From a virus, in the IMG/VR virus record IMGVR_UViG_3300042507_002077, positions 1 through 37,352 of that record: a stretch of 37,352 bases of DNA; one strand, written 5' to 3'. The translations under genes and the position numbers were made by a program. Below are positions 1,012 through 37,352 of this stretch, piece by piece (within the stretch, counting starts at the first letter, position 1; every line of letters begins with the position of its first letter). A model generated the notes under the pieces. It was not told where the DNA came from. It saw nothing but the letters and a program-made list of their open reading frames with translations, and did not search any database.

Positions 1012-2193
1012 ATGAACACGCCTTCGCACAGCGTTACCGAGAACGGCAAGACCGTGACGATTCACGGCTTGGAGGTGTTCTGTGCGTATGACCCCGCCCT
1101 AGATGGGGACCACGATGCCGAACTCAAGAAGTTCGACAACGGGCGCGTGCGCGACATCGTGGAGTCCACGCGGCGCTACATGGAGAAGGGTTCGTTCCCC
1201 CGGCTCGTGGTCATGCACGAGAAGGACGGCAATGAGCCGAAGTCATCCGTGGGCCGTTTCACGAGCCTGCGCTACGAGGAGCGGGACGGCGTGGGCTTCA
1301 TCGTGGGCGACTGCGAGGTTGAGCGCCCTGTGTTTGACCGCCTGCTCGCCACGAACGCCTTTCCGCGCCGCAGCGCGGAGATTTGGGCCGATCAGAACCA
1401 TCTGTCGGAAGTTGCCCTGCTTGGGCGGGAAACCCCGCGCAGGCCGCTTCCTGACACGCACTTTGGGCGCACGGGCGAACCCGTGCGCTTTGCACGCTCA
1501 CTCCGCTTCGACATGGGGACGGTCGGTGGCGGGCTTTCATCGTTCGTCCCCGGCACAAAGGACACCAACATGGCGATGGACTACGAGAAGGAGATCGCTG
1601 CGATGAAGTGCGACATGGACGAGATCAAGTCCATGATGAAGAAGCACTTTGGCGAGGGCGAAGCGGAGGAGAAGAAGGAGGAGATGGCCGCCGACGATAT
1701 GCTCACCGAGCAGTTCGCGGAGGAGTCCGATGAGGGTGACGGCATCCACATCGACATCGACTCGCACGGCGAGGAGTCGGAGGAGGAGGAGGACGCTATG
1801 TTCCCCGCCTCGCGTCCCGGCAAGGCCGACACCTTCGCGCTGCGCCGCGAGAACGCGACCCTTCGTCGTGAACTCAACGCGATCAAGAGCGAGATGCGCC
1901 GCGAGAAGTTCAGCCGCGAGATCGACCTCATGGAGCATGAGGGCTACCGCATCCCCGCCGCGCAGCGTCCCCGCCTGATTGCGGAACTTGAGGCTTCGTC
2001 CGACCCGGTTTCGACCGTTGAGGGTTGGCGCGAACTCTTTACCCGCGACCCGATGGGCGTGCGCATCGACATGAGCCGTTCGTCCACGGGCGGCGGCGAC
2101 ATCGACGCGAAGGAAGTGGCTTCGCTTGTCCGCGAGTTTGCGGGCAAGCCTGAGGAATTCAAGAAGGCAATCAATAGCCGCATCAAGCGGTAA
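1012..2193 (+). CDS. Prohead protease-scaffold fusion (Mu gpI-like)
   Basis: A 393-aa protein. Residues 1-165 look like a gpI-type capsid maturation protease: V-V-M-H69-E-K-D, then V-G-R-x-x-S-L-R, a G-D-C-E-V strand and F-P-R-R-S121-A-E-I. H69 and S121 are the likely catalytic pair. Residues 190-262 are charged, ending in a run of acidic residues. A266-S-R-P-G-K-A follows, then a coiled-coil/scaffold segment (about 275-330) and a C-terminal tail. A protease fused to a scaffold just before decoration and capsid genes is the standard arrangement, as in Mu I/Z and lambda C/Nu3. An in-frame start at 1570 with a strong Shine-Dalgarno site probably makes scaffold alone. The start is uncertain: ATG 988 is also in frame and neither has a good ribosome site. 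Confidence 0.75.
   Translation: MNTPSHSVTENGKTVTIHGLEVFCAYDPALDGDHDAELKKFDNGRVRDIVESTRRYMEKGSFPRLVVMHEKDGNEPKSSVGRFTSLRYEERDGVGFIVGDCEVERPVFDRLLATNAFPRRSAEIWADQNHLSEVALLGRETPRRPLPDTHFGRTGEPVRFARSLRFDMGTVGGGLSSFVPGTKDTNMAMDYEKEIAAMKCDMDEIKSMMKKHFGEGEAEEKKEEMAADDMLTEQFAEESDEGDGIHIDIDSHGEESEEEEDAMFPASRPGKADTFALRRENATLRRELNAIKSEMRREKFSREIDLMEHEGYRIPAAQRPRLIAELEASSDPVSTVEGWRELFTRDPMGVRIDMSRSSTGGGDIDAKEVASLVREFAGKPEEFKKAINSRIKR
1570..2193 (+). CDS. Internal in-frame scaffold protein
   Basis: ATG 1570 is codon 187 of the protease-scaffold frame. It is preceded by AAAGGACACCAAC, which puts AGGA 7 nt before the start, far better than anything upstream of the full-length start. Translation from here gives a 207-aa acidic, coiled-coil protein without the protease domain. 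This is how lambda Nu3 and Mu Z scaffolds are made inside C and I. The product would form the internal core on which capsid protein assembles, then be degraded or cut. The S-R-P-G-K sequence falls at residues 81-85 of this product. Confidence 0.6.
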   Translation: MAMDYEKEIAAMKCDMDEIKSMMKKHFGEGEAEEKKEEMAADDMLTEQFAEESDEGDGIHIDIDSHGEESEEEEDAMFPASRPGKADTFALRRENATLRRELNAIKSEMRREKFSREIDLMEHEGYRIPAAQRPRLIAELEASSDPVSTVEGWRELFTRDPMGVRIDMSRSSTGGGDIDAKEVASLVREFAGKPEEFKKAINSRIKR

Positions 2194-18298: not shown

Positions 18299-18678
18299 TG
18301 GACACGCCGCTTTACATCGGCAAGATCGCGTTGGGCAAGATCGAATTGCCCATCGTGGACTGCACGGGGTGGTATGCGGTTGGCACGGGTGCGCGGTGCC
18401 GCAAGGGGCTTGATGTCGCCGGATGCCCGTCCTGCCCGCAGCGCACGACCCGCAACGGCAACCTGAAGGAGCCTCCCGTCTACGGCAAGGGTGGGGAAAG
18501 GACACGAGATCCGATCCCGGTCACGCCGCCGCAGGCCCCGCCACCAAAACCGATGCGCGGATTAGGTGATGCAATCAGCCGGGTAACGGGCAAACTAGGG
18601 ATCAAGGAATGCGGCGGGTGCGCCAAGCGGCGTGCGCTGCTCAACAAAGTTGTCCCGTTCGGGAAAGGCGAGGCATGA
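18298..18678 (+). CDS. Small Cys-motif protein (zinc-knuckle-like)
   Basis: A 126-aa protein from ATG 18298 overlapping the previous stop. It has two Cys clusters: D-C22-T-G-W-Y with C34-R-K-G and C43-P-S-C46, and C105-G-G-C108 in G-I-K-E-C-G-G-C-A-K-R-R-A-L-L-N. A proline-rich linker (P-P-Q-A-P-P-P-K-P) separates them. C-x-x-C pairs next to basic residues suggest a small zinc-binding domain. The C-terminal C-G-G-C-x-K-R-x-x-L-N pattern is one I recall in other phage late proteins, unverified. It is likely a partner of the Cys-rich protein. Confidence 0.65.
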   Translation: MDTPLYIGKIALGKIELPIVDCTGWYAVGTGARCRKGLDVAGCPSCPQRTTRNGNLKEPPVYGKGGERTRDPIPVTPPQAPPPKPMRGLGDAISRVTGKLGIKECGGCAKRRALLNKVVPFGKGEA

Positions 18679-19613
18679 AGGCGGCAAAGTCCAAAGCAAC
18701 CAAGCGCCCGTGGTCGGTGACGCACTACGGGCAGAATGTCCATGTCATCAAGTGCGACCGTGCTCCCGCGACCGGGTGGGAACAATGGATCTACTTGCGC
18801 TCGGACGCGCACACGGACGGCAGCAAGTCCGATCACGCAACAGAGATCGCGCACCTGAAGGAAGCGGTGAAGCGCAACGCCATCATCATCGACTGCGGCG
18901 ACACGCTTGACTTGATGCAGGGCAAGGGCGACAGGCGGCAATGCAAGTCGCAGTTGCGTTCGTCGCAGTTGGCGGCGGCATACTTCGATCAGGTGATTAC
19001 GGAGACTGCGGAGCGCTACGCGCCCTACGCATCGCATTGGGCGGTCTTGGGGCAGGGCAACCATGAGTCCGCGTGGCTCAAGCACCATGAGTGCGACCCG
19101 ACCGCGCACCTTGTCCGTGCGATCAAGATGCTGAACCCGCAGAGTCCCATCGCCGCAGGCGGATGGGGCGGATGGGTGAAGGTTCAGGTGCAGGCATCGA
19201 ACAACTACATGACTTGGACGCTGCGCTACGCGCACGGCGGGTCGGCGGGCGGCGCAATGACCTTCGGCGTGCTTGACACTCGCCGGATGTATTCGTGGAT
19301 CGAAGGCGCGGACATGATCGCAATGGGGCACACGCACGACTCCAACATCGTTGGGATCAGCCGGGAGTATTGCGAGAGCCGAAACGGTCGGTATGAGGTA
19401 AGAAAAAGACATTGCGATTTCGTACGGATCGGAACGATGAAGGACGATTGGGGAACGGGCGCGGGCGGGTGGGCTGTGGAGAAGAACGGCGGGCCGAAGC
19501 CCACGCGGGCGAAGTGGGTGCGCCTGTTCATCCGCTACGAGATGGAACCCGGCATCAACGCGAAGGGCGTGACCCGTCCCCGCCTGTATTGGGAAGTGTT
19601 CGACGCGCAGTAG
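18675..19613 (+). CDS. Calcineurin-like metallophosphoesterase
   Basis: A 312-aa protein carrying the metallophosphoesterase signatures in order: D44-A-H46 (R-S-D-A-H-T-D-G), G75-D76 (D-C-G-D-T-L), G128-N129-H130-E131, H187 (Y-A-H-G-G) and G218-H219-T-H221. These residues bind two metal ions and hydrolyse phosphoesters. The substrate is unknown; phage members include nucleases and phosphatases. The location among late genes, not replication genes, is notable. It overlaps the previous stop (ATGA at 18675). Confidence 0.85.
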   Translation: MKAAKSKATKRPWSVTHYGQNVHVIKCDRAPATGWEQWIYLRSDAHTDGSKSDHATEIAHLKEAVKRNAIIIDCGDTLDLMQGKGDRRQCKSQLRSSQLAAAYFDQVITETAERYAPYASHWAVLGQGNHESAWLKHHECDPTAHLVRAIKMLNPQSPIAAGGWGGWVKVQVQASNNYMTWTLRYAHGGSAGGAMTFGVLDTRRMYSWIEGADMIAMGHTHDSNIVGISREYCESRNGRYEVRKRHCDFVRIGTMKDDWGTGAGGWAVEKNGGPKPTRAKWVRLFIRYEMEPGINAKGVTRPRLYWEVFDAQ

Positions 19614-24486: not shown

Positions 24487-24530
24487 TCCCCCCGGCAGCG
24501 CCTCTAGGCCACCGGGGGGATTTCGTTTTT
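24487..24530 (+). terminator. Intrinsic terminator
   Basis: TCCCCCCGG (24487-24495) pairs with CCGGGGGGA (24512-24520), nine bp, followed by TTTCGTTTTT. It ends the operon that closes with the lysozyme gene. Confidence 0.85.
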
Positions 24531-24560
24531 ACGCACACTCATCACCAAAGGGAGATTGCC

Positions 24561-24977
24561 ATGCGACCGATCTACGAACGCGCAAGCGACCGCACGCGGC
24601 AGGAGGAGATCATGCGTGCGTTCTGCGACCGCTATGGATGCGATGCCGTGGAGATGCCCGCGCTGTGCGCGTGGGACTACGAGATCCGCTACTGCGGGGA
24701 GATCGTCGCCGTGGCCGAGATCAAGACCCGGAGCAAGCCTGCTGCGCTGTACCCGGACTTCATGGTGTCGGAGCGCAAGGTGCTGCGCTTGCGCGAGGAA
24801 GCCGAGCGCCGGGAGATCGCGCCGCTGCTCGTGGTGGATCACCCGGATCTTCGCGGGTGGGTGCGCTTGGATACGGTCGGCTACACGGTGGGGATAGGGG
24901 GCCGCAAGGACAGGAGCGACCCCGCCGACATGGAAACCGTGGCGCGCATCCTGATGGCGGAATTCACCCCGTTCTAG
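24561..24977 (+). CDS. PD-(D/E)xK nuclease-like protein
   Basis: A 138-aa protein with the core D39-Y-E-I-R-Y-C-G-E-I-V-A-V-A-E53-I-K55, where D39, E53 and K55 form the PD-(D/E)xK active site. Further helices carry E-R-K-V-L-R-L-R-E-E-A-E. Similar small phage proteins of the VRR-NUC type cut branched or damaged DNA. A recombination or host-DNA degradation role is likely given RusA and ERF nearby. The gene is preceded by AAAGGGAGA. Confidence 0.7.
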   Translation: MRPIYERASDRTRQEEIMRAFCDRYGCDAVEMPALCAWDYEIRYCGEIVAVAEIKTRSKPAALYPDFMVSERKVLRLREEAERREIAPLLVVDHPDLRGWVRLDTVGYTVGIGGRKDRSDPADMETVARILMAEFTPF

Positions 24978-24995
24978 GAACTTATCCGGCCCTAT

Positions 24996-25018
24996 CAGAT
25001 TTTCAAATAAATCCACCC
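24996..25018 (+). repeat. Upstream element, copy 1
   Basis: A 23-bp AT-rich sequence beginning CAGATTTTCAAATAAATC, identical to 27921-27943. It ends 18 bp before the -35 box of the DUF932 promoter, the same distance as in the other copy. Likely an activator site or UP element. Confidence 0.7.
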
Positions 25019-25036
25019 GGATTCGACCTTTCACCC

Positions 25037-25064
25037 TTGCGCCCCGATGGAACGGGGTTACAGT
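25037..25064 (+). promoter_or_regulatory. Early promoter with CCCCG-N6-CGGGG operator (DUF932)
   Basis: TTGCGC (25037-25042), 16-nt spacer, TACAGT (25059-25064). The palindrome CCCCG-ATGGAA-CGGGG occupies 25042-25057. Confidence 0.75.
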
Positions 25065-25070
25065 ATGTGC

Positions 25071-25117
25071 GTGGGCAATCCGCCCACACCGATCCCGCCG
25101 GATGCGGGAGCAGGAGA
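25071..25117 (+). promoter_or_regulatory. Leader with tandem hairpins and GGA-loop before SD
   Basis: Hairpin 1 GTGGGC-aatcc-GCCCAC (25071-25087). Hairpin 2 TCCCGC-cggat-GCGGGA (25093-25109) with GGA in the loop (25100-25102). Then AGGAGA, GGA 25113-25115, 13 nt after the loop GGA. CsrA-type target layout. Confidence 0.6.
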
Positions 25118-25124
25118 CACGCAA

Positions 25125-26141
25125 ATGGCACACGAGATTCACGACAACGATGGCTTGGCGATGGCGAACACGGGCGCTTGGCACGGACTCGGCAAGGTTG
25201 TGGAAGGAGCCATGAACCCCTTTGCCGCCCTGCGGATGGCCGGATTGGATTGGGAGGTGTTGGAGTCGGACGCGCTCACCGGGATCTTCAACGCGGGCAG
25301 CGGCGACGAGAAGCGCGTCAGCACCGACCGCAGCAAGATGCTTGTGCGCTCGGACGATCACAGCGTGCTTGGCGTGGTCGGCGCGGACTTCACCCCGGTT
25401 CAGAACGCGACCCTTGCCGAACTCGCTTTCGCACTCCGCGCCGCCGGATCTGACAAGGGTGTCGAAGTTGAAACCGCCTTGTCCATCAAGGGCGGGAAGC
25501 GGGTCGGGATGCTCCTCCGCGCCCCGAGCGTGGACATGACGGGCAAGGGCGACGAAGCCCGCCCGTACCTGTTCCTCGCCAACGGGCACGATGGAACCCT
25601 CGCCCTGCGCGTCAAGCCGACGAGCGTTCGCGTGGTGTGCGCCAACACCTTCGGCGCGGCGCTGTCCGACCGGGGAGCGTCTTGGTCGCACCGCCACACG
25701 CAGGGGATCACGGGGCGCGTCGAAGAACTCGCCACCGACATCAAGCGATGGTTCGCCGCGATTGAGGATGGTCAGGAAACCGCCCGCGCACTTGCCTCGC
25801 GGCAGATGAACCGGGACGCGATCCGCGACCTGTGGGCCGATGTTCTCCTGCGCATCGACGGGCCGACCCCGACCACGATCAAGACGAAGTGGGACGAGAA
25901 CCGGGTAGAGAAGGCGACCGCCTTCCTCGCGCACGCCGCGCAAGTGTTCGACTCCGAATCGACCCGGTACGGCGCGAACCTGTGGGTTGCCGCCAACGCC
26001 GCCACGAACGCGATTCAGCACCTTCGCGCCGGGTGGTCGGTGCGGACGAAGGACGCGCAGACGCGGGCCTACGCGGCGTGGGACGGCAGCACCGCCGATG
26101 CCACGCAGGAAGCCTTCCGCGCCGCAATGGCGATGGCTTGA
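25125..26141 (+). CDS. DUF932 family protein
   Basis: A 338-aa protein from ATG 25125. It has the DUF932/phage-plasmid pattern: N-T-G-A-W-H-G-L-G near residue 16, V-G-A-D-F-T-P-V-Q-N, G-G-K-R-V-G-M-L-L, V-R-V-V-C-A-N-T-F and helices to the end. The family is common in phages and plasmids, often near recombination genes; its biochemical function is not established. First gene after a regulated promoter, so probably expressed early and highly. Confidence 0.75.
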   Translation: MAHEIHDNDGLAMANTGAWHGLGKVVEGAMNPFAALRMAGLDWEVLESDALTGIFNAGSGDEKRVSTDRSKMLVRSDDHSVLGVVGADFTPVQNATLAELAFALRAAGSDKGVEVETALSIKGGKRVGMLLRAPSVDMTGKGDEARPYLFLANGHDGTLALRVKPTSVRVVCANTFGAALSDRGASWSHRHTQGITGRVEELATDIKRWFAAIEDGQETARALASRQMNRDAIRDLWADVLLRIDGPTPTTIKTKWDENRVEKATAFLAHAAQVFDSESTRYGANLWVAANAATNAIQHLRAGWSVRTKDAQTRAYAAWDGSTADATQEAFRAAMAMA

Positions 26142-26171
26142 CGAAATGTGGGGGCGATGCGACCGCCCCAC

Positions 26172-26200
26172 TTGCAACCCCGCCGAAGCGGGGGTATGAT
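26172..26200 (+). promoter_or_regulatory. Early promoter with CCCCG-N6-CGGGG operator (ERF)
   Basis: TTGCAA (26172-26177), 17-nt spacer, TATGAT (26195-26200). The palindrome CCCCG-CCGAAG-CGGGG occupies 26178-26193. The -10 is the closest to consensus of this set. Confidence 0.75.
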
Positions 26201-26206
26201 GAACCC

Positions 26207-26250
26207 GGCGCACAACGCGCCAACCGTGCCGCCCGGATGGCAGCAAAGGA
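26207..26250 (+). promoter_or_regulatory. Leader with hairpins and GGA-loop before SD
   Basis: GGCGC-acaac-GCGCC (26207-26221). Then a stem of GCCGCC with GGCAGC (one C-A mismatch) around loop CGGAT (26234-26238). AAAGGAGACACC follows; loop GGA 26235 and SD GGA 26248 are 13 nt apart. Confidence 0.5.
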
Positions 26251-26256
26251 GACACC

Positions 26257-27018
26257 ATGAACCGCAGCGAATCAATCGCAAGCCTCGCCGCAGCATTGGC
26301 GAAGGCAAACTTGGAACTGTCGAACCCCGGCTTCGACAAGAAGAACTCGCACTTCAACAACGGGTACGCATCACTTGCCGCCGTGCTAAACGCGATCCGG
26401 CAACCGCTTGCCAAGCAGGGGCTATCGCTGATCCAAACGATCAGCACCGAGCCGGGGAGCGTCACCATCACCACGAGCCTGATCCACGCATCGGGGGAGT
26501 GGCTTGCGGCGGATGTGTCGGTTGCGGTCGCGCCCAACGCGAACGCGCAGGCGGTCGGCAGCGCCACGACATACATGAGGCGCTACAGCGCGCTGTCGAT
26601 GTGCGGAATCGCCGGGGACGATGACGATGCCGAGGAGGATCGCCGCGACCGCGAGGAGCGCAGGCCGATGGCAGCGCCCACCAAGCGGTCCAATTCCACC
26701 CCCCCTCCTCCGGTCAAGCCCAACGGCAATCAGCCGGGGAACCCGCTTGACAAGTTCCCGGATGACTTTGACGGCGAAGTGACGGTCAAGCGCGTCACGA
26801 AGCGAGATACCGCATGGGCCGTTCAGGTCGAACACGCCGAGTACGGCAGCGCGTGGGTAAAGACGAATGTGGAGGATTACGCCAACGCCCTGTCCGAGGC
26901 CGTGGGGCAGGCGCGAGTCTTGGGGCTGTTCCGAAACGGGCCTGCGCTTGAACTGACGCACATCAAGAACCCCAAGCCCATCATGCAGAAGGAGGAAGCC
27001 GATGCACTCCCCTTCTAA
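26257..27018 (+). CDS. erf: ERF-family single-strand annealing protein
   Basis: A 253-aa protein. Residues 1-130 carry the ERF pattern: A-L-A-K-A-N-L-E-L, N-N-G-Y-A-S-L-A-A-V-L, G-L-S-L-I-Q-T-I, L-I-H-A-S-G-E-W-L, and A-T-T-Y-M-R-R-Y-S-A-L followed by an acidic D-D-D-D. A proline-rich linker and a C-terminal domain follow. ERF proteins pair complementary single strands and promote phage recombination and circularisation. Preceded by AAAGGAGACACC and under its own regulated promoter. Confidence 0.85.
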   Translation: MNRSESIASLAAALAKANLELSNPGFDKKNSHFNNGYASLAAVLNAIRQPLAKQGLSLIQTISTEPGSVTITTSLIHASGEWLAADVSVAVAPNANAQAVGSATTYMRRYSALSMCGIAGDDDDAEEDRRDREERRPMAAPTKRSNSTPPPPVKPNGNQPGNPLDKFPDDFDGEVTVKRVTKRDTAWAVQVEHAEYGSAWVKTNVEDYANALSEAVGQARVLGLFRNGPALELTHIKNPKPIMQKEEADALPF

Positions 27019-30911: not shown

Positions 30912-31391
30912 ATGGACAAGAGCGAAACTTACAAGGCCATTGCTTCCCGGCTTGGCATGGCGGCACGCCCCGGCGCGAAGGCGGTGATGAGCAAGGCGAC
31001 CGATGCTCTTGATTACATCAAGTCAAGCATTGCAAGCGGCAAGACCGTGTATGTGCAAGCAGGCTCACGAACGACCAAAATCACTCCGCAGACCTATGCC
31101 AAGTGGGAGGCGGCAGGCAGGCCGCTGTTCAAGATCAGCAACGATGGCGCATTGCTGATGGCAAGCGGTTCTTCGTATGTGCGCCTGACGATGGGCGAAG
31201 AAATGCTTGTGCGGGTTACGGCAATGTCCCGCCCCGGCGCGAAGTCCCGTCACGCCGTCCGCGAAGGCGACAAGGTGAGCGCCGCCGACGATGCCGTGTC
31301 CCGCAAGATCCGCAAGTTGATGGACGAGGGCAAGCCGCAGAAGCAGGCGGTAGCCATCGCTCTTGACCTTGAGCGCCGGGGTGAACTGTGA
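30912..31391 (+). CDS. SRPGAK-motif protein of the head module
   Basis: A 159-aa basic protein between terminase and portal. It carries the motif twice: A18-R-P-G-A-K-A (with A in place of S) and M-S106-R-P-G-A-K-S. The segment between is a compact beta domain (T-V-Y-V-Q-A-G-S-R-T-T-K-I). The C-terminus, K-I-R-K-L-M-D-E-G-K-P-Q-K-Q-A-V-A-I-A-L, resembles a K-Q-A-V-A-I-A-L segment I recall from other phage proteins. The N-terminus (Y-K-A-I-A-S-R-L-G-M-A) resembles that of the 454-aa motif protein (R-K-S-I-A-E-R-L-G-S-A). It is the first late gene, so probably abundant. A head-internal or processed protein is inferred. Confidence 0.75.
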   Translation: MDKSETYKAIASRLGMAARPGAKAVMSKATDALDYIKSSIASGKTVYVQAGSRTTKITPQTYAKWEAAGRPLFKISNDGALLMASGSSYVRLTMGEEMLVRVTAMSRPGAKSRHAVREGDKVSAADDAVSRKIRKLMDEGKPQKQAVAIALDLERRGEL

Positions 31392-32851
31392 CCCAACTTC
31401 CGCAGCCGGGATCGAACCCGATGGCGAACGGCGTGCCCCCCGAGAAGCGGGTACGCAAGCCCCTGCCCGCGCCCGTTGAGCGCGGCATCACGCACCCTCT
31501 CGCAACCCCGGTGGAGGTGCAGCGGTCTTTCTTCACGACCGCAGACAAGTTGCTGCGGAACAGCAGCCTCGCGTACAGGCTGAACCCGCAGTATCAGATG
31601 ATGATGCGGGCGGATGCGGACATCGAAGGTGTCCTGCGATCCCTGCAAGTCACGCTTGCAAGCCTTGAGTGGGCCATCGTCCCGGAGGATGACGAGAACG
31701 AACGCCTTGTCGCGCTTGCCGACCGCATCAGCAAGATTTTCGACGCGATGCCCCGGCGCAGCGATTTCGTTCGTTCGATGCATGAAGCGGTGTGGTACGG
31801 CAATTCCGCCGCCAATCTCGTCTACGCCAAGCATCCCGACCTCGGCATCTCGGTGAAAGAGTGGTATCCCTTCCACCCCGACACCATCGCTTACGATCAG
31901 CGCGGGAACCTTGCGATGAAGGTGGGAGCCGCGTACAGCGCGGACGGCCCGTCCTCGCAGAACATCGGCTTCGATGCCCGCGTCCACATCTTCGATGAGC
32001 AGGAGCGCCGCGCCATCGTCCTGCATCGGGTGTTCGTGAACGCGCCCGACTTCAACGACCCCAACAGCACGGAAAGCCTCTACCGGGGCGTGGGCGCACG
32101 CGATGTCTGTTGGTTCATGTGGCTTGCCAAGCAGGAGATCCTGCAAGACGCGATCACCTACGCGGAGCGGTACGCGATGGGCATTCGCGTGGGGTACTAC
32201 CCGCTCGGGCAGGACGCGGGACGCTCCATGATGGAGAATGTCCTAGCCAACCTCACCAACGACAACAGCGTTCTGCTGCCGCAGTCGGGCACGGAGAAGA
32301 TTTACGACATCGACATCAAGGAGCCGAACGCGGGCCGCGCTCAGGTGTTCATGGAGTTGGTCAATTGGTTCAGCGGCAAGATCAAGGAAGCGATCCTCGG
32401 GCAGTCGCTTTCCTCGGAAGCCGCTTCGACCGGGCTAGGCTCGGGTGTCGCAAATCTGCACGCCGACACGCTCTCGCGCATCATCCGCTACCACGCCGAT
32501 GCGCTTGCCGACAGCCTGACCACGGACTTCGTGCGCGTGGTCGCCAAGATGCTTGGCGCGACCGACTCGGAAGTGAACGCGCTGCGCTTCAACTTTGCCC
32601 CGGAGCGCCCCGACCCGAAGGAGCGCTTGGAGGCGGTGGAGAAGTTCGTCGCGATGGGTGGCCGGGTGTCGGAGCGCGAAGTGCGCGACCTCCTCGGCCT
32701 GTCGGAGCCGAAGGAGGATGAGCCCATCCTCGGCACGGCGGCGCAGGGCAACCCCCTTGATGCCATCCTCGGCAACGGCACGGCAGCGCAGGAAGGCACG
32801 CCGCCCGACCCGAACGCGCCCGTCACCTTCACGATGAAGCGTTGGCTGTAG
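31388..32851 (+). CDS. Portal protein, DUF935/Mu gp29-like
   Basis: A 487-aa protein from GTG 31388 (GTGA overlap). It shows the DUF935 pattern: N-P-Q-Y-Q-M-M-M-R-A-D-A-D-I-E-G-V-L, L-A-S-L-E-W-A-I-V-P, then K-Q-E-I-L-Q-D-A-I-T-Y-A-E-R-Y-A-M-G-I and the helical C-terminal wing. Portals form the 12-fold ring through which DNA enters and leaves the head. It follows terminase and precedes the MuF gene as in Mu-like phages. Confidence 0.88.
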   Translation: MTQLPQPGSNPMANGVPPEKRVRKPLPAPVERGITHPLATPVEVQRSFFTTADKLLRNSSLAYRLNPQYQMMMRADADIEGVLRSLQVTLASLEWAIVPEDDENERLVALADRISKIFDAMPRRSDFVRSMHEAVWYGNSAANLVYAKHPDLGISVKEWYPFHPDTIAYDQRGNLAMKVGAAYSADGPSSQNIGFDARVHIFDEQERRAIVLHRVFVNAPDFNDPNSTESLYRGVGARDVCWFMWLAKQEILQDAITYAERYAMGIRVGYYPLGQDAGRSMMENVLANLTNDNSVLLPQSGTEKIYDIDIKEPNAGRAQVFMELVNWFSGKIKEAILGQSLSSEAASTGLGSGVANLHADTLSRIIRYHADALADSLTTDFVRVVAKMLGATDSEVNALRFNFAPERPDPKERLEAVEKFVAMGGRVSEREVRDLLGLSEPKEDEPILGTAAQGNPLDAILGNGTAAQEGTPPDPNAPVTFTMKRWL

Positions 32852-32854
32852 CCG

Positions 32855-33985
32855 ATGGGCGACAGGCGGAAATCGCTTGGCGACCTCGTACGCGCCGTCT
32901 ACGCGGACGGTGCAGCCGCGTACCGTGCCGCCATCGCTGAACAGGTGCGCGGCAAGGGGGGCGTACGGCAATGGGACGCATGGGAGGCGGATACCGCCGC
33001 CCTGCTCCTCATCTCGTGGGCCGCAGGGGCGCACCAAAGCCTCTACACGGCGGGGATCAAGGTGCCCAAGCCCGCCGTGCCTGCCCGGTTCGCCGCCGAC
33101 GATGCGCTGTCGAAGGCGGTCATGCGCTTCGACCCCGGCCCCGCCCGCGAAGCCGTGGAGCGGTTCATCAACCTCCTCCCCATCACCCGCGCCCGGTGGG
33201 ACATCCTCATCGACCGGGCGTTCGACGCCGCAAGCGAACTCCGCAAGGACGAAGCCGCGACAGGGCTAACGAAGTTGCTTGACCGCAGCCCGAAGTTGGC
33301 CGCGCTGATTTACCCCGCGCTGTCGGGGCGACCGCCGCGTTCGGTGCCGGGGCAAGCAGAGAAGGCGCTGCCGGAAGGCGTGAAGCGCGTCCGTACCCCC
33401 GGCGTGCAGGCGGTGGCGCAGGGGGCGTTCTTCGTCACGGGGATGACGGCGGAACAGGCGAAGGCAACCCAAGACCTCTTGGCGAAGGTAATTCGGCAGG
33501 AGGAATCGGTATCGGTCGCCGGGAAGAAACTCAAGACCATCGGCGTAGGAGACTTCATCGAACAGGCCACGCTCGCCACAGGAACCGATTTGACGGCGGC
33601 GCGGCTTGAAACGGTCTACCGGACGAACCTGAACCGCGCAGCCTCGCAGGGGCAATTGGACATCGTGCGGGAGCCGACCGTGCGGAAGTTCGTGCCGCTG
33701 ATGCAATTCAGCGCGACGAAGGACACACGCACGCGGGACACGCATCGGGCGATGGACGGCTATGTGGCGACCGTCGAACAGATCGACTCGCAGGGAATAA
33801 ATACCCCGCTTGGGTTCAATTGCCGATGCGGGTGGAAGCCCGTCCCGGTGGCGAAGGCACAGGCGAACGGGTGGGTAGACGATGAAGGCGTGCCCAACTT
33901 CAAGGCGATTGAGCGGCACAATGGGCGGCGGCAGGGATTGATCGACACGGGCAAGGTGCCCGATCCGGGTTTCGTTTCCGGCTAA
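32855..33985 (+). CDS. MuF-like minor head protein
   Basis: A 376-aa protein four bases after the portal. The C-terminal third has the Mu F signature: E-T-V-Y-R-T-N-L-N-R-A, Q-F-S-A-T-K-D-T-R-T-R-D-T-H-R-A-M-D-G, and F-N-C-R-C-G-W. MuF proteins are bound near the portal and are injected or help exit in some phages. No toxin domain is visible after the MuF motif. Confidence 0.85.
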   Translation: MGDRRKSLGDLVRAVYADGAAAYRAAIAEQVRGKGGVRQWDAWEADTAALLLISWAAGAHQSLYTAGIKVPKPAVPARFAADDALSKAVMRFDPGPAREAVERFINLLPITRARWDILIDRAFDAASELRKDEAATGLTKLLDRSPKLAALIYPALSGRPPRSVPGQAEKALPEGVKRVRTPGVQAVAQGAFFVTGMTAEQAKATQDLLAKVIRQEESVSVAGKKLKTIGVGDFIEQATLATGTDLTAARLETVYRTNLNRAASQGQLDIVREPTVRKFVPLMQFSATKDTRTRDTHRAMDGYVATVEQIDSQGINTPLGFNCRCGWKPVPVAKAQANGWVDDEGVPNFKAIERHNGRRQGLIDTGKVPDPGFVSG

Positions 33986-34014: not shown

Positions 34015-35379
34015 ATGCAGGACATGAGCGACCTACGGAAGTCAATTGCGGAGCGTCTTGGCAGCGCGGGCAAGGTGAAGTCTGCGCGCATTGATTCGTC
34101 AATGCTTGACGGTTCCATGCGCGAAGTCCCGATCATCCTGAAGGATGGCAGTCATGCCGTTGCGCGCAAGTCTGCTTCCGGGTGGAAGGTAGACGGACAC
34201 GCGGACATTCCGGCGTTCGCCAAGTTGCGCGATCTTGTGGCGCACATGGACAAGATGGGCTTCTCCCGCCCCGGCGCGAAGGCGAAGTTTGGTTTTGGCG
34301 TGGGCGAAGCCTTTGAGTTTGAGGGCAAGGTGTATGTGGTGAACAGCAACGCTGACACCATTTCCTCCCTGCTCTCCTCGGCCAAGTCCAACAGCGAAAA
34401 GGCGATGATGCTTGCCGCCTATATGCATAAGGGATGGATTTCCTACGAAGGCAAGCGCACCGCTTCCCGCCCCGGCGTGAAGGCGAAGTTTGACCTGTAT
34501 TCAAACCTAAAGGCAAAGCAGGCAAAGTGGATTCGTCAGGCGCAAATTGCGATGCAGAACGACAATGAAGAAGATGAACAGTTTTCTTCTGACATGGCGA
34601 ACGCTTTTGAAGCCGTTAGCGCGGCAATTCGGTCGCAGCCAATGTCGCAAGTAATGCAGTTAGTCAAGACTTTCAGAAGTGAAGCGCAAGCGGAAATTGC
34701 GACTGTGCTGCGTTCTTCTTTCTCCCGCCCCGGCGCGAAGGCAAAGTTTTCCATGCAGTTTGAAGTCGGCAAGACTTACGAACACAGTTTCGCTAATGAC
34801 TCGGATTCCCGCGTTATGTGGAAAGTCATGGCAAGATCGGGTTCGATGCTGACGATCAAGCAAGTCGCATCGGGCTATCGCGTCAAGACCAACGATCCTT
34901 CGGATTACCGACATGGTGTGTCTGCCGTGAATGGTGAAACCAAGCGCGTGAAGATTCACAGCGATGAGCGCGGAGAATATGTGTATCCGATGGGGCGTTA
35001 CAGCATGGCTCCAAGCATCCGCGCTACCGATATTGCACGAGGCTTCTCCCGCCCCGGCGCGAAGGCGAAGATGGGGAAGTGGGAATCGACCCTGACCAAG
35101 AAGGACGGTAAGCCGATGGAGGAATTCACGGCGACCATCCACGGCGAACAGTTCATGATTGAAGTAAAGGAACAGGCAGGGAAGCCCGTTGCCACGCTTT
35201 ACATTTTCTATGAATCTCGCGGGTTCCGCCCAATGGGGCAGGGCACTTTGCAGGCGATGATGAATAAGGCGCAGCGATACGCCGCGCAGGAAGCAAAGGA
35301 TGTGGACGAAATCGGTCGCCGCTTGGGATTTTGGGCCTCCCGCCCCGGCGCGAAGGGGTCTAGCAAGGCGAAGGCGTAA
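34015..35379 (+). CDS. Modular protein with five SRPGAKAK motifs
   Basis: A 454-aa lysine-rich protein after MuF, with AAGGAG upstream. The motif [FA]-S-R-P-G-[AV]-K-A-K-[FM] occurs with its Ser at 84, 151, 237, 345 and, shortened, 442. It splits the chain into units of about 83, 57, 77, 98 and 88 residues that are not related to each other. Unit 3 is a helical coiled coil, unit 4 is beta-rich and ends G-R-Y-S-M-A-P-S-I-R-A, and unit 5 is alpha/beta. This looks like a polyprotein or a set of domains joined by one linker. Since a related S-R-P-G-K lies in the protease-scaffold, cutting by the head protease is possible. Internal core or ejected protein is inferred. Confidence 0.75.
   Translation: MQDMSDLRKSIAERLGSAGKVKSARIDSSMLDGSMREVPIILKDGSHAVARKSASGWKVDGHADIPAFAKLRDLVAHMDKMGFSRPGAKAKFGFGVGEAFEFEGKVYVVNSNADTISSLLSSAKSNSEKAMMLAAYMHKGWISYEGKRTASRPGVKAKFDLYSNLKAKQAKWIRQAQIAMQNDNEEDEQFSSDMANAFEAVSAAIRSQPMSQVMQLVKTFRSEAQAEIATVLRSSFSRPGAKAKFSMQFEVGKTYEHSFANDSDSRVMWKVMARSGSMLTIKQVASGYRVKTNDPSDYRHGVSAVNGETKRVKIHSDERGEYVYPMGRYSMAPSIRATDIARGFSRPGAKAKMGKWESTLTKKDGKPMEEFTATIHGEQFMIEVKEQAGKPVATLYIFYESRGFRPMGQGTLQAMMNKAQRYAAQEAKDVDEIGRRLGFWASRPGAKGSSKAKA
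34261..35350 (+). repeat. Dispersed DNA repeat encoding SRPGAK
   Basis: TCC-CGC-CCC-GGC-GCG-AAG recurs at 34264, 34465 (GTG for GCG), 34723, 35047 and 35338. The copy at 31227 is identical and the one at 30966 begins at CGC. Codons are identical across copies apart from the one GTG, so the repeats are recent, gene-converted or held at DNA level. The protease-scaffold copy (1810) uses other codons (TCG-CGT). Confidence 0.75.
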
Positions 35380-35936: not shown

Positions 35937-37352
35937 TGCGCCGCGCAAGGCGACTCAACCGCCCCGGCCTGCCCGGTTCCTCGGAATCGGCGGTGCTGCT
36001 GTCAAACGACTTGCAGGCGGAAGCAACGCTGAACCTTGATTTCCGTTCGGGCGTGCTTGACCCGCGCATCGACTTTCAGCGCACGACCACGGGCACCTAC
36101 TACCGTGGGCCGTTCAATCAGAACTTGGTCACGCGAAGCCAAGACCTTGATTTGTGGTCAACGCTTGATGCTGTTGTGACGGCAAATGCGGCGACAGCCC
36201 CGGATGGGACGATGACGGCGGAACGAATCGTTCCAAATGCTGTCTCCGCACCGCACGGGGTGTATCGCTCAACATCCGTAGTTGGATTGGCGGCATACAC
36301 GCAAAGCGTGTATGTGAAGGCGGATGGCCTGACTTGGTTCTACATGACGGAGGCAAATTCCCTCACGGCAAGTGCGTGGTTCGATGTTGCCAACGGCATT
36401 GTGGGAACGGTGAGCGGAACGGGGAGCCCGTCGGCAAGCATCGAAAATGTCGGCAACGGTTGGTTTCGTTGCGTGATGCGATTCACGACCCTATCCGCGC
36501 AGACTTTGGCAAACATCCAAGTTCGCCCAACGTCAGGTAACGGCGTGTTTTCGTTTGCCGGGGATGGGATCAACGGCTTGCTTGCATGGGGCGCACAAGC
36601 CACCGAAGGCTCCTCGCTGACCCCGTACCTCCCCACGACCACGGCGGCGATCACGCAGGGGCAGATCGCTGCGGCGGGAAGTAATGTGCCGAGGTTTGAG
36701 AACGACCCGATCACCGGGGAGGCCCGTGGTCTGCTGATCGAAGGCGGGGCGACGAACCTGCAACTTTACAGCGCCGACATTACCAACGGTTCAGCACGAA
36801 CCAACATTACGTTTGGGGCCACCAAGATCACCGCCCCTGATGGAACGACATCAGGTGAGTTGGTGTCTGCAACCACGACTGGTGCAACATCGCTTCGCGG
36901 CAGCACTCATACAATTGCCGGAACCAACGCAACGGGCTCGATTTTCATCAAGCAAGGATCGTTGGCTGTCGTGCAATTTTGGATCATTGACAGCACGACA
37001 AGCACGACGATTCTGTCAGGCACATACACATTTGCGACCAAAGCCACCACGGTGGTGTCGGGTACAGGGACGATGACGGCCACGGATGTCGGCAATGGAT
37101 GGGTGCGTATTGCATTGTCCGTGACGACCTTCGTGTCGGGAAACAACCTGCGATTCTTCTACGGCTTCAACGGCGGTACGGCTACTGCGGGCGATTCGTT
37201 CTATCTGTGGGGGGTACAAATTGAGCAGCAGTCCTTCGCCTCCTCCTACATCCCGACCACGACCGCCACGGTTGCGCGTGGAGCGGACAACGCCTTGATG
37301 ACGGGCACTAACTTCTCGTCTTGGTACAACCAAGCGGAAGGGACGATCTATG
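35936..37352 (+). CDS. Phage fibre/adhesin-like protein, 5' part (continues at 1-660)
   Basis: The N-terminal 390 residues plus the overlap of a 609-aa protein that finishes at base 660 on the circle. The N-terminus is basic (M-R-R-A-R-R-L-N-R-P), then L-D-F-R-S-G-V-L-D-P-R-I-D-F-Q-R. Two beta units follow, N-L-V-T-R-S-Q-D-L-D-L-W to W-G-A-Q, and N-L-Q-L-Y-S to W-G-V-Q. It is a paralogue of the 13453-15306 fibre in unit order and ending. Receptor or surface binding is expected; the head-module position suggests a head fibre. Confidence 0.7.
   Translation, partial: MRRARRLNRPGLPGSSESAVLLSNDLQAEATLNLDFRSGVLDPRIDFQRTTTGTYYRGPFNQNLVTRSQDLDLWSTLDAVVTANAATAPDGTMTAERIVPNAVSAPHGVYRSTSVVGLAAYTQSVYVKADGLTWFYMTEANSLTASAWFDVANGIVGTVSGTGSPSASIENVGNGWFRCVMRFTTLSAQTLANIQVRPTSGNGVFSFAGDGINGLLAWGAQATEGSSLTPYLPTTTAAITQGQIAAAGSNVPRFENDPITGEARGLLIEGGATNLQLYSADITNGSARTNITFGATKITAPDGTTSGELVSATTTGATSLRGSTHTIAGTNATGSIFIKQGSLAVVQFWIIDSTTSTTILSGTYTFATKATTVVSGTGTMTATDVGNGWVRIALSVTTFVSGNNLRFFYGFNGGTATAGDSFYLWGVQIEQQSFASSYIPTTTATVARGADNALMTGTNFSSWYNQAEGTIY
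37106..37352. repeat. Terminal overlap, right copy
   Basis: Matches 1-247 except G at 37225 in place of A at 120. Joins the fibre frame to the left end. Confidence 0.9.

Follow-up and report, generated by a model that had tools for sequence, protein, structure and literature searches.

Several described systems come close to the organization reported here. The internal head proteins of phage T4 carry a capsid targeting sequence and are cut by gp21; in the T-even tail fibres, segments are exchanged at short conserved motifs, which are recombination points inside a phage gene; and integron gene cassettes rely on a repeated site and a site-specific recombinase, moving whole genes and giving no fused protein. 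In Rhs proteins, the mark of the exchange point doubles as a cleavage motif. According to the accessible parts of two reports (PMC3150448, PMC3482391), a conserved peptide marks, in the Rhs/CDI polymorphic toxins, the point at which effector modules are exchanged by recombination. Polyvalent proteins, as presented in the accessible portion of Iyer et al. 2017 (PMC5512222), are multidomain proteins of phages and conjugative elements, for which injection alongside the DNA and partial processing by peptidases, among them assemblin-like ones, have been proposed. Lastly, the available text of PMC3945230 describes the Rad52-like phage recombinases, Erf among them, as carrying out relaxed recombination and generating mosaicism over longer or diverged homology (e.g., 700 bp); the Erf protein of phage D3, together with its exonuclease, performs roughly on a par with lambda Red in recombining DNAs that are identical or 78% identical.

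The window, that is, the whole stretch of 37,352 nucleotides analysed (IMG/VR record IMGVR_UViG_3300042507_002077), holds near one end a Mu-type head block, in which a terminase (TerL) match lies upstream of the genes for a 159-aa protein, the portal, the MuF protein and a 454-aa protein, the 159-aa and 454-aa genes flanking the portal and MuF pair (Table 1). The protease-scaffold gene is located near the opposite end of the contig from portal/MuF and joins the same block in relatives. The window contig looks circularly permuted: it stops within an apparently open structural gene (35937-37352), and the protease and capsid genes stand at its start.

We propose, with a probability of roughly 0.7 for the reading as a whole, that the two genes flanking portal and MuF belong to a system of modular arrays combining a joint frozen as DNA, Erf-driven exchange, leader-directed delivery into the head and proposed cutting by the prohead protease. 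The two genes would encode "array" proteins, in which a conserved leader is followed by small modules bounded by a standard joint; an Erf-type annealing protein would recombine DNAs sharing the joint, thereby exchanging modules; the leader would direct the array protein into the prohead, where the prohead protease would cut at or beside the joints and release the modules; and these would be ejected alongside the DNA as host-directed proteins, whose fast turnover suggests a counter-defence role.

Such proteins resemble the T4 internal proteins in having an N-terminal leader (85 of 109 closed proteins), in being accompanied by a head-block protease of the same fold and, on our proposal, in supplying small proteins to the head, but T4 has one protein per gene and one cut, whereas the arrays consist of exchangeable modules. 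As with polyvalent proteins, they are multidomain. They lie in the head block; unlike in polyvalent proteins, their modules have no convincing domain of known function and the proposed peptidase is a separate prohead protease. In the accessible part of the polyvalent protein paper (PMC5512222), a DNA-frozen standard joint is not mentioned and the word "linker" is absent. Rhs/CDI toxins vary in one C-terminal tip, whereas the arrays offer many interchangeable slots with a joint frozen across distant phages, and the Pfam and NCBIfam matches of the array proteins include no Rhs or CDI family. The exchanges in T-even tail fibres are adhesin swaps, whereas the arrays carry a repeated standard joint in a head-block protein. 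With integrons, the arrays share the cassette logic and the repeated site. Relaxed recombination by Rad52-like proteins provides the proposed agent of exchange, a dedicated joint being found, as far as the accessible part of that source extends, only in the arrays. To our knowledge, none of the closest known concepts includes a joint that recurs in frame and is conserved at the DNA level among distant phages, and we found no mention of the joint motif in the open-access library searched (most subscription journals being outside that scope).

Table 1. Features of the head block, the array proteins and the putative protease-scaffold and annealing proteins in the window
Feature	Position	Strand	Remarks
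Prohead protease (putative) fused to scaffold, 393 aa	1012..2193	+	
Joint-like site 1, HFGRTGEPVRFAR, immediately behind protease domain	1459..1497	+	
Joint-like site 2, PASRPGKADTFAL, ahead of coiled coil	1804..1842	+	codons unlike those of the joint
Erf-like single-strand annealing protein	26257..27018	+	phrog_2324, E 1.6e-41
Array protein A, 159 aa, upstream of portal: leader MDKSETYKAIASRLGMA, one module, C-terminal phrog_2423-like domain	30912..31391	+	
Array A joint ARPGAKAV, immediately behind leader	30963..30986	+	
Array A joint SRPGAKSR, preceding C-terminal domain	31227..31250	+	
Array A C-terminal domain	31284..31391	+	phrog_2423, E 6.7e-9, small phage protein family without known function
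Portal, Mu type	31388..32851	+	Portal_Mu, E 3.4e-48
MuF-like minor head protein	32855..33985	+	Phage_Mu_F, E 7.4e-14
Array protein B, 454 aa, downstream of MuF: leader, five modules, five joints	34015..35379	+	
Array B N-terminal leader MQDMSDLRKSIAERLGSAGKVKSAR; first joint expected there, unrecognisable	34015..34089	+	
Array B module 1	34090..34263	+	shared with L068 (100%), L052 (93%), L184 (53%)
Array B joint 1, SRPGAKAKF	34264..34290	+	matches 24-nt consensus exactly
Array B module 2, predicted fold	34288..34464	+	pLDDT ~90 over aa 101-140
Array B joint 2, SRPGVKAKF	34465..34491	+	1 mismatch to 24-nt consensus
Array B module 3, helical by prediction, low confidence	34489..34722	+	
Array B joint 3, SRPGAKAKF	34723..34749	+	1 mismatch to 24-nt consensus
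Array B module 4	34747..35046	+	stand-alone relative in cyanophage PSS2
Array B joint 4, SRPGAKAKM	35047..35073	+	matches 24-nt consensus exactly
Array B module 5, predicted fold	35071..35337	+	pLDDT 85-97
Array B joint 5, SRPGAKGS, C-terminus	35338..35361	+	

The motif had originally been described as five copies of SRPGAKAKF in the 454-aa protein and two in the 159-aa protein. Five SRPG[AV]K copies are indeed present in the former, the exact 9-mer occurring just twice (aa 84 and 237) alongside SRPGVKAKF (aa 151), SRPGAKAKM (aa 345) and SRPGAKGSS (aa 442, at the C-terminus); the latter holds two related copies, ARPGAKAVM and SRPGAKSRH, neither of them exact. The related motif reported in the protease-scaffold is there (ASRPGKADTF, with SRPG at 1810). 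A scan of IMG/VR for DNA encoding RPGAKAKF returned 66 stretches and one for RPGAKAKM 108. In all 66 of the former the motif falls within a readable ORF, 56 of these 66 ORFs having at least two copies (by regular expression), and 64 of the 66 loci match at least one of the TerL, portal, MuF and protease of the window, the exceptions being L005 and L064. On contigs of sufficient length, TerL is followed by portal, MuF, protease and major capsid protein, with one optional motif protein between TerL and portal and another between MuF and protease, so that relatives carry the motif before the portal and/or after MuF, in agreement with the idea of a motif common to a set of head-block proteins.

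All the relatives are metagenome contigs or bins. The first set, 140 distinct motif proteins, included a small number of unrelated ones with a single motif; the final set, free of the unrelated kinds, comprises 149 (147 from IMG/VR and the two of the window). For the family scans, proteins with modules F18, F19, F46 and F47 (a single unrelated motif) and seven repeats were removed, and 111 of the remaining 125 array proteins were covered, those of the portal-recruited loci L166-L241 lying outside the scans. The phage records searched yielded no isolate of the group: the portal matches listed are only 20-29% identical, the protease has none, and relatives of the 454-aa protein occur only in cyanophage PSS2 (three records); plasmids yielded no relative of this protein. 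A 21-nt joint scan of cellular genome contigs gave 17 stretches, of which only L150 encodes head proteins of the group; a cellular origin was rejected. The other 16 matched none of the 15 window proteins used for comparison and look like chance. L150 (OMJK01000020.1) is a phage contig of the group in a Nitrospiraceae bin (portal 40% and protease 52% identical), which is a weak hint about the host. A scan with AGR codons gave four stretches, three encoding an unrelated protein with a single LPNRPGAKAKI and one without a motif ORF.

The comparison of the array proteins indicates that the joint is the standard connector between their small modules. The 149 motif proteins contain 614 modules (median length 77 aa), which, clustered with the leader removed, fall into 107 families and 145 singletons. 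Among the 109 closed proteins with at least two joints, the 85 counted above as having a leader carry, by regular expression, the type M..MSDxRKEIAxRLGxAA ahead of the first joint (104 of 124 by a looser expression); a short expression finds the phrog_2423-like C-terminal domain in 70 of the 109, and in the PHROG scan 64 of 111 array proteins match phrog_2423. Termination within 5 aa of a joint is seen in 23 of the 109. Array protein B, which matches no family of Pfam, PHROGs or NCBIfam at E<=0.001, is predicted as several domains in one chain, with modules 2 and 5 confidently folded, low-confidence stretches in between, and a leader forming a helix over residues 2-18 (pLDDT ~60); in this AlphaFold model, built on only 26 aligned rows, all five joints overlap stretches with pLDDT <50. 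Two joints 11 aa apart with no module in between, resembling an empty slot, were observed in L098, L121 and L144. In L014, L017, L028, L048 and others, an extra domain (GGTAVGVARARDI...) stands ahead of the leader, which is thus internal, at about aa 90-140.

Beyond what had been predicted, the comparative data show that the motif is frozen as DNA, in a single reading frame, and that it marks the breakpoints of module exchange. At the protein level the joint is S-R-P-G-A-K-A-K-[F/M] and at the DNA level TCCCGCCCCGGCGCGAAGGCGAAG. Among 195 joints from 79 loci, collected by amino-acid pattern with the synonymous positions left free in the scan, the commonest codon accounts for.94 of S,.94 of R,.96 of P,.985 of G,.96 of A,.98 of K and.76 of the second A; the corresponding values at invariant portal residues of the same loci are.61,.66,.55,.65,.57 and.96 for S, R, P, G, A and K, so that K is uninformative in this respect. 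The leader residues R, L and G show mixed codons, and the nucleotide logo consists of a conserved island of ~28 nt with nearly bare flanks. The joint stays near the consensus in phages of 49-56% GC and is found letter for letter in L012, whose portal is only ~40% identical to that of the window. All 191 exact 23-mers, overlapping loci being counted repeatedly, are read in the SRPGAKAK frame within open stretches of at least 90 aa. With up to 3 mismatches, the 24-nt joint occurs four times in the window versus none in 100 dinucleotide-preserving shuffles; these shuffles and the codon comparison with the portal rule out a chance repeat or codon bias.

These results are in agreement with those from loci recruited by the portal alone (80 loci, the best of 117 portal relatives; many of these contigs had already come up in the motif scans). 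A DNA joint with up to 4 mismatches is present in 62 of the 80, with 223 copies in sense and none in antisense. When up to 3 mismatches are allowed, the joint is present in 26 of 31 long contigs, in each of them on a single strand, and a backwards-pattern control gave 0; a motif scattered or placed on both strands is hence ruled out. No DNA joint at up to 4 mismatches was found in 18 of the 80: in four of these (L215, L226, L230 and L234) a lineage-specific variant (SRAGAK, SRSGVK, SRSGGK and the like) is repeated, L229 has one ARPGAKSTH only, and the remaining 13, whose contigs are often short, have no ORF with at least three generalised joints in the stretch examined. SRTGAK occurs alongside near-consensus DNA in L207, L210, L211 and L216. 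Agreement at the third residue is higher between joints of the same protein (208 of 318 pairs,.65) than between proteins (.37), which, together with the lineage variants, suggests a protein core S-R-x-G-x-K-x-x-[F/M] undergoing concerted evolution within each lineage. No covariation of the third residue with the scaffold site was seen (joints with P accompany a scaffold R or P), and this residue is thus probably no determinant of specificity.

As for the modules themselves, their order is distinct in 143 of the 149 proteins, and the neighbours vary for all 62 families present in at least three proteins. Of 106 multi-member families, 36 are represented both before the portal and after MuF; the homologue of module 2, for instance, occupies the pre-portal site in L056. 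Even siblings with 98-100% identical portal and/or MuF proteins differ in their modules. We identified 19 distinct stretches at least 93% identical between phages whose portal genes are less than 85% identical, in an analysis limited to pairs whose portals aligned over 600 nt or more, a design cleaner than earlier breakpoint counts on non-independent pairs. The ends of these stretches fall in a joint or leader in 59 of 69 cases, versus 12.7% expected for same-length stretches placed at random, which points to the joint as the exchange point; in L056 and L093, 253 bp are 99.6% identical (portals 69.6%) and joints stand at both ends in both. Taken together, the sequences show that modules are exchanged at the joint, between phages as well as within and between the two gene positions. 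Besides the Erf-like annealing protein, the window encodes a Gam-like protein and has an ORF resembling DNA-repair exonucleases. The Erf family matches in 22 of the 31 long contigs, the window included, with no match in the other nine. The exchange might consist of homologous recombination over the ~25-bp joint by the Erf-type annealing protein of the phage. The exonuclease-like ORF (18609-19613; phrog_7339, E 2.5e-11) is a possible partner of the Erf-like protein.

A further question concerns the use of the joint at the protein level. By its predicted fold, the 1012 gene product resembles the prohead proteases of the gp21/assemblin type. The best VIA-align match is T4 gp21 (119 aligned residues, rmsd 3.5), at a Z of 8.2, which is near the level of chance arrangements; seven herpesvirus rows follow (Z 7.3 to 5.4), the first eight rows all being viral maturation proteases, and unrelated LetB/MlaD chains come next, at Z 5.4 and below. 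Foldseek against BFVD gave 21 matches, several of them annotated as prohead or capsid maturation proteases (one of the latter, from a phage, at E 3e-10), and against the PDB none at E<=0.001. No protease family is among the Pfam matches and there is no PDB sequence match; two of 47 protease relatives match PHROGs annotated "head maturation protease" (one phrog_2976, 2.7e-4; one phrog_976, 0.003).

A profile derived from the joints gives its two best scores among 15 window ORFs to PASRPGKADTFAL (14.3) and HFGRTGEPVRFAR (9.4), both in this gene; the third-best score is 7.7, in the 3734 ORF, and the null has 99% and 99.9% points at 7.9 and 13.4. The pattern [SAT]RxGx4[FM][AG] is found in 39 of 82 protease ORFs (0.9 expected) versus 0 of 604 proteins of 14 other families. 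The two sites share the spacing x-R-x-G-x4-F-A, lie one on each side of the acidic linker and both fall within low-confidence stretches of the model, and the codons of site 2 place its likeness to the joint at the protein level. Of 60 proteases, 58 have a recognisable site 1 (in one, H replaces R, and in several, C replaces F); since this site is part of a long conserved stretch, it may be conserved for a different reason. The joint spacing at site 2 is seen in 31 of the 35 closer proteases and in none of the 25 at tblastn identity of 56% or lower, 18 of which show VIASRSTYALR or the like, the other 7 being unmatched by the expression; in this distant group the joints are the same as elsewhere. 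The protease probably cuts itself at the two joint-like sites. As for the predicted cut site in the array proteins, the gp21-like fold, the two joint-like sites and the low-confidence stretches around the joints give it indirect support, whereas the unchanged joints of phages whose proteases lack site 2, as well as the 23 proteins ending at a joint, where a cut would free nothing, count against it; cutting at or beside the joints, with release of the modules, thus appears to us an evenly balanced proposal. More tentatively, and somewhat short of an even chance, the joint might define a system of "standard parts", in which one in-frame sequence would serve both as recombination joint and as protease cut site and any module would fit any slot in either gene.

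A serious possibility, albeit one we do not favour, is that the joint is a mere recombination seam encoding a harmless flexible linker in an uncut, multidomain array protein. The freezing of the DNA and the breakpoints require nothing further, lineages differ in the third residue, and joints at the C-terminus are frequent. Yet lineages in which the third residue differs still show S-R-x-G-x-K and [FM] (the expression itself fixing R and G); in the codons of R, P, G and K, variation is lower at the first two positions (mean 5.9 of 406 copies) than at the third (mean 17), in a sample partly chosen by protein pattern; and the protease-scaffold carries the same protein pattern in other codons.

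It had also been suggested that the motif is a packaging tag. That the joint peptide is an uncut binding or packaging tag for scaffold, portal or DNA, repeated for avidity, fits the basic character of RPGAKAK and the C-terminal copies in 23 of the 109 closed proteins, but it leaves the DNA freezing, the breakpoints and the protease-scaffold sites unexplained, and targeting would be explained more simply by the conserved N-terminal leader; we regard this role as unlikely for the joint itself, the leader being the better candidate. An integron-like target of a site-specific recombinase or homing element would account for a fixed short site, cassette-like modules and the tandem module-less joints (L098, L121, L144), but no site-specific recombinase was found among the 10 window ORFs scanned and the tolerated lineage variants fit homology-driven exchange better, which makes such a target very improbable. 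Although the relatives are all assemblies and the joint is an exact repeat, a misjoining of metagenome contigs at short repeats is hardly credible, since identical array proteins occur in separate contigs (L029/L042/L055, with different IMG sample numbers, and L074/L105/L127/L130), the repeat is just ~24-28 nt and the modules remain in frame.

The modular-array reading would explain how phages could share a rapidly exchangeable library of small delivered proteins without breakage of the reading frame. What the modules do is suggested by their context: from the gene position, the leader and the fast turnover we infer that they are host-directed proteins delivered with the DNA and candidates for counter-defence, and hence putative effectors; no module has a convincing match of known function. 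In the scan of the 111 array proteins, the Pfam matches were DUF7678 in three proteins and one weak match each to TACC_C and Med9, while NCBIfam gave one SMC match and PHROGs 15 families, none of the latter with a function; PADLOC over the array proteins reached 1.5e-4 at best, and the fold searches, which effectively covered stretches of modules 4 and 5, returned no nameable match. The protein of cyanophage PSS2 resembling module 4 is encoded by its own 249-nt gene. The joint may thus serve as a handle for finding proteins that may act in counter-defence or host takeover, the 149 proteins together offering 252 module families and singletons, and the substrate rule of the 1012 prohead protease becomes directly testable.

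Concerning the remainder of the window, a 690-aa antisense ORF (24504-26576, minus strand), without a PHROG match, overlaps the phrog_1221 gene (25047-26141, plus strand) and is probably a high-GC shadow ORF.
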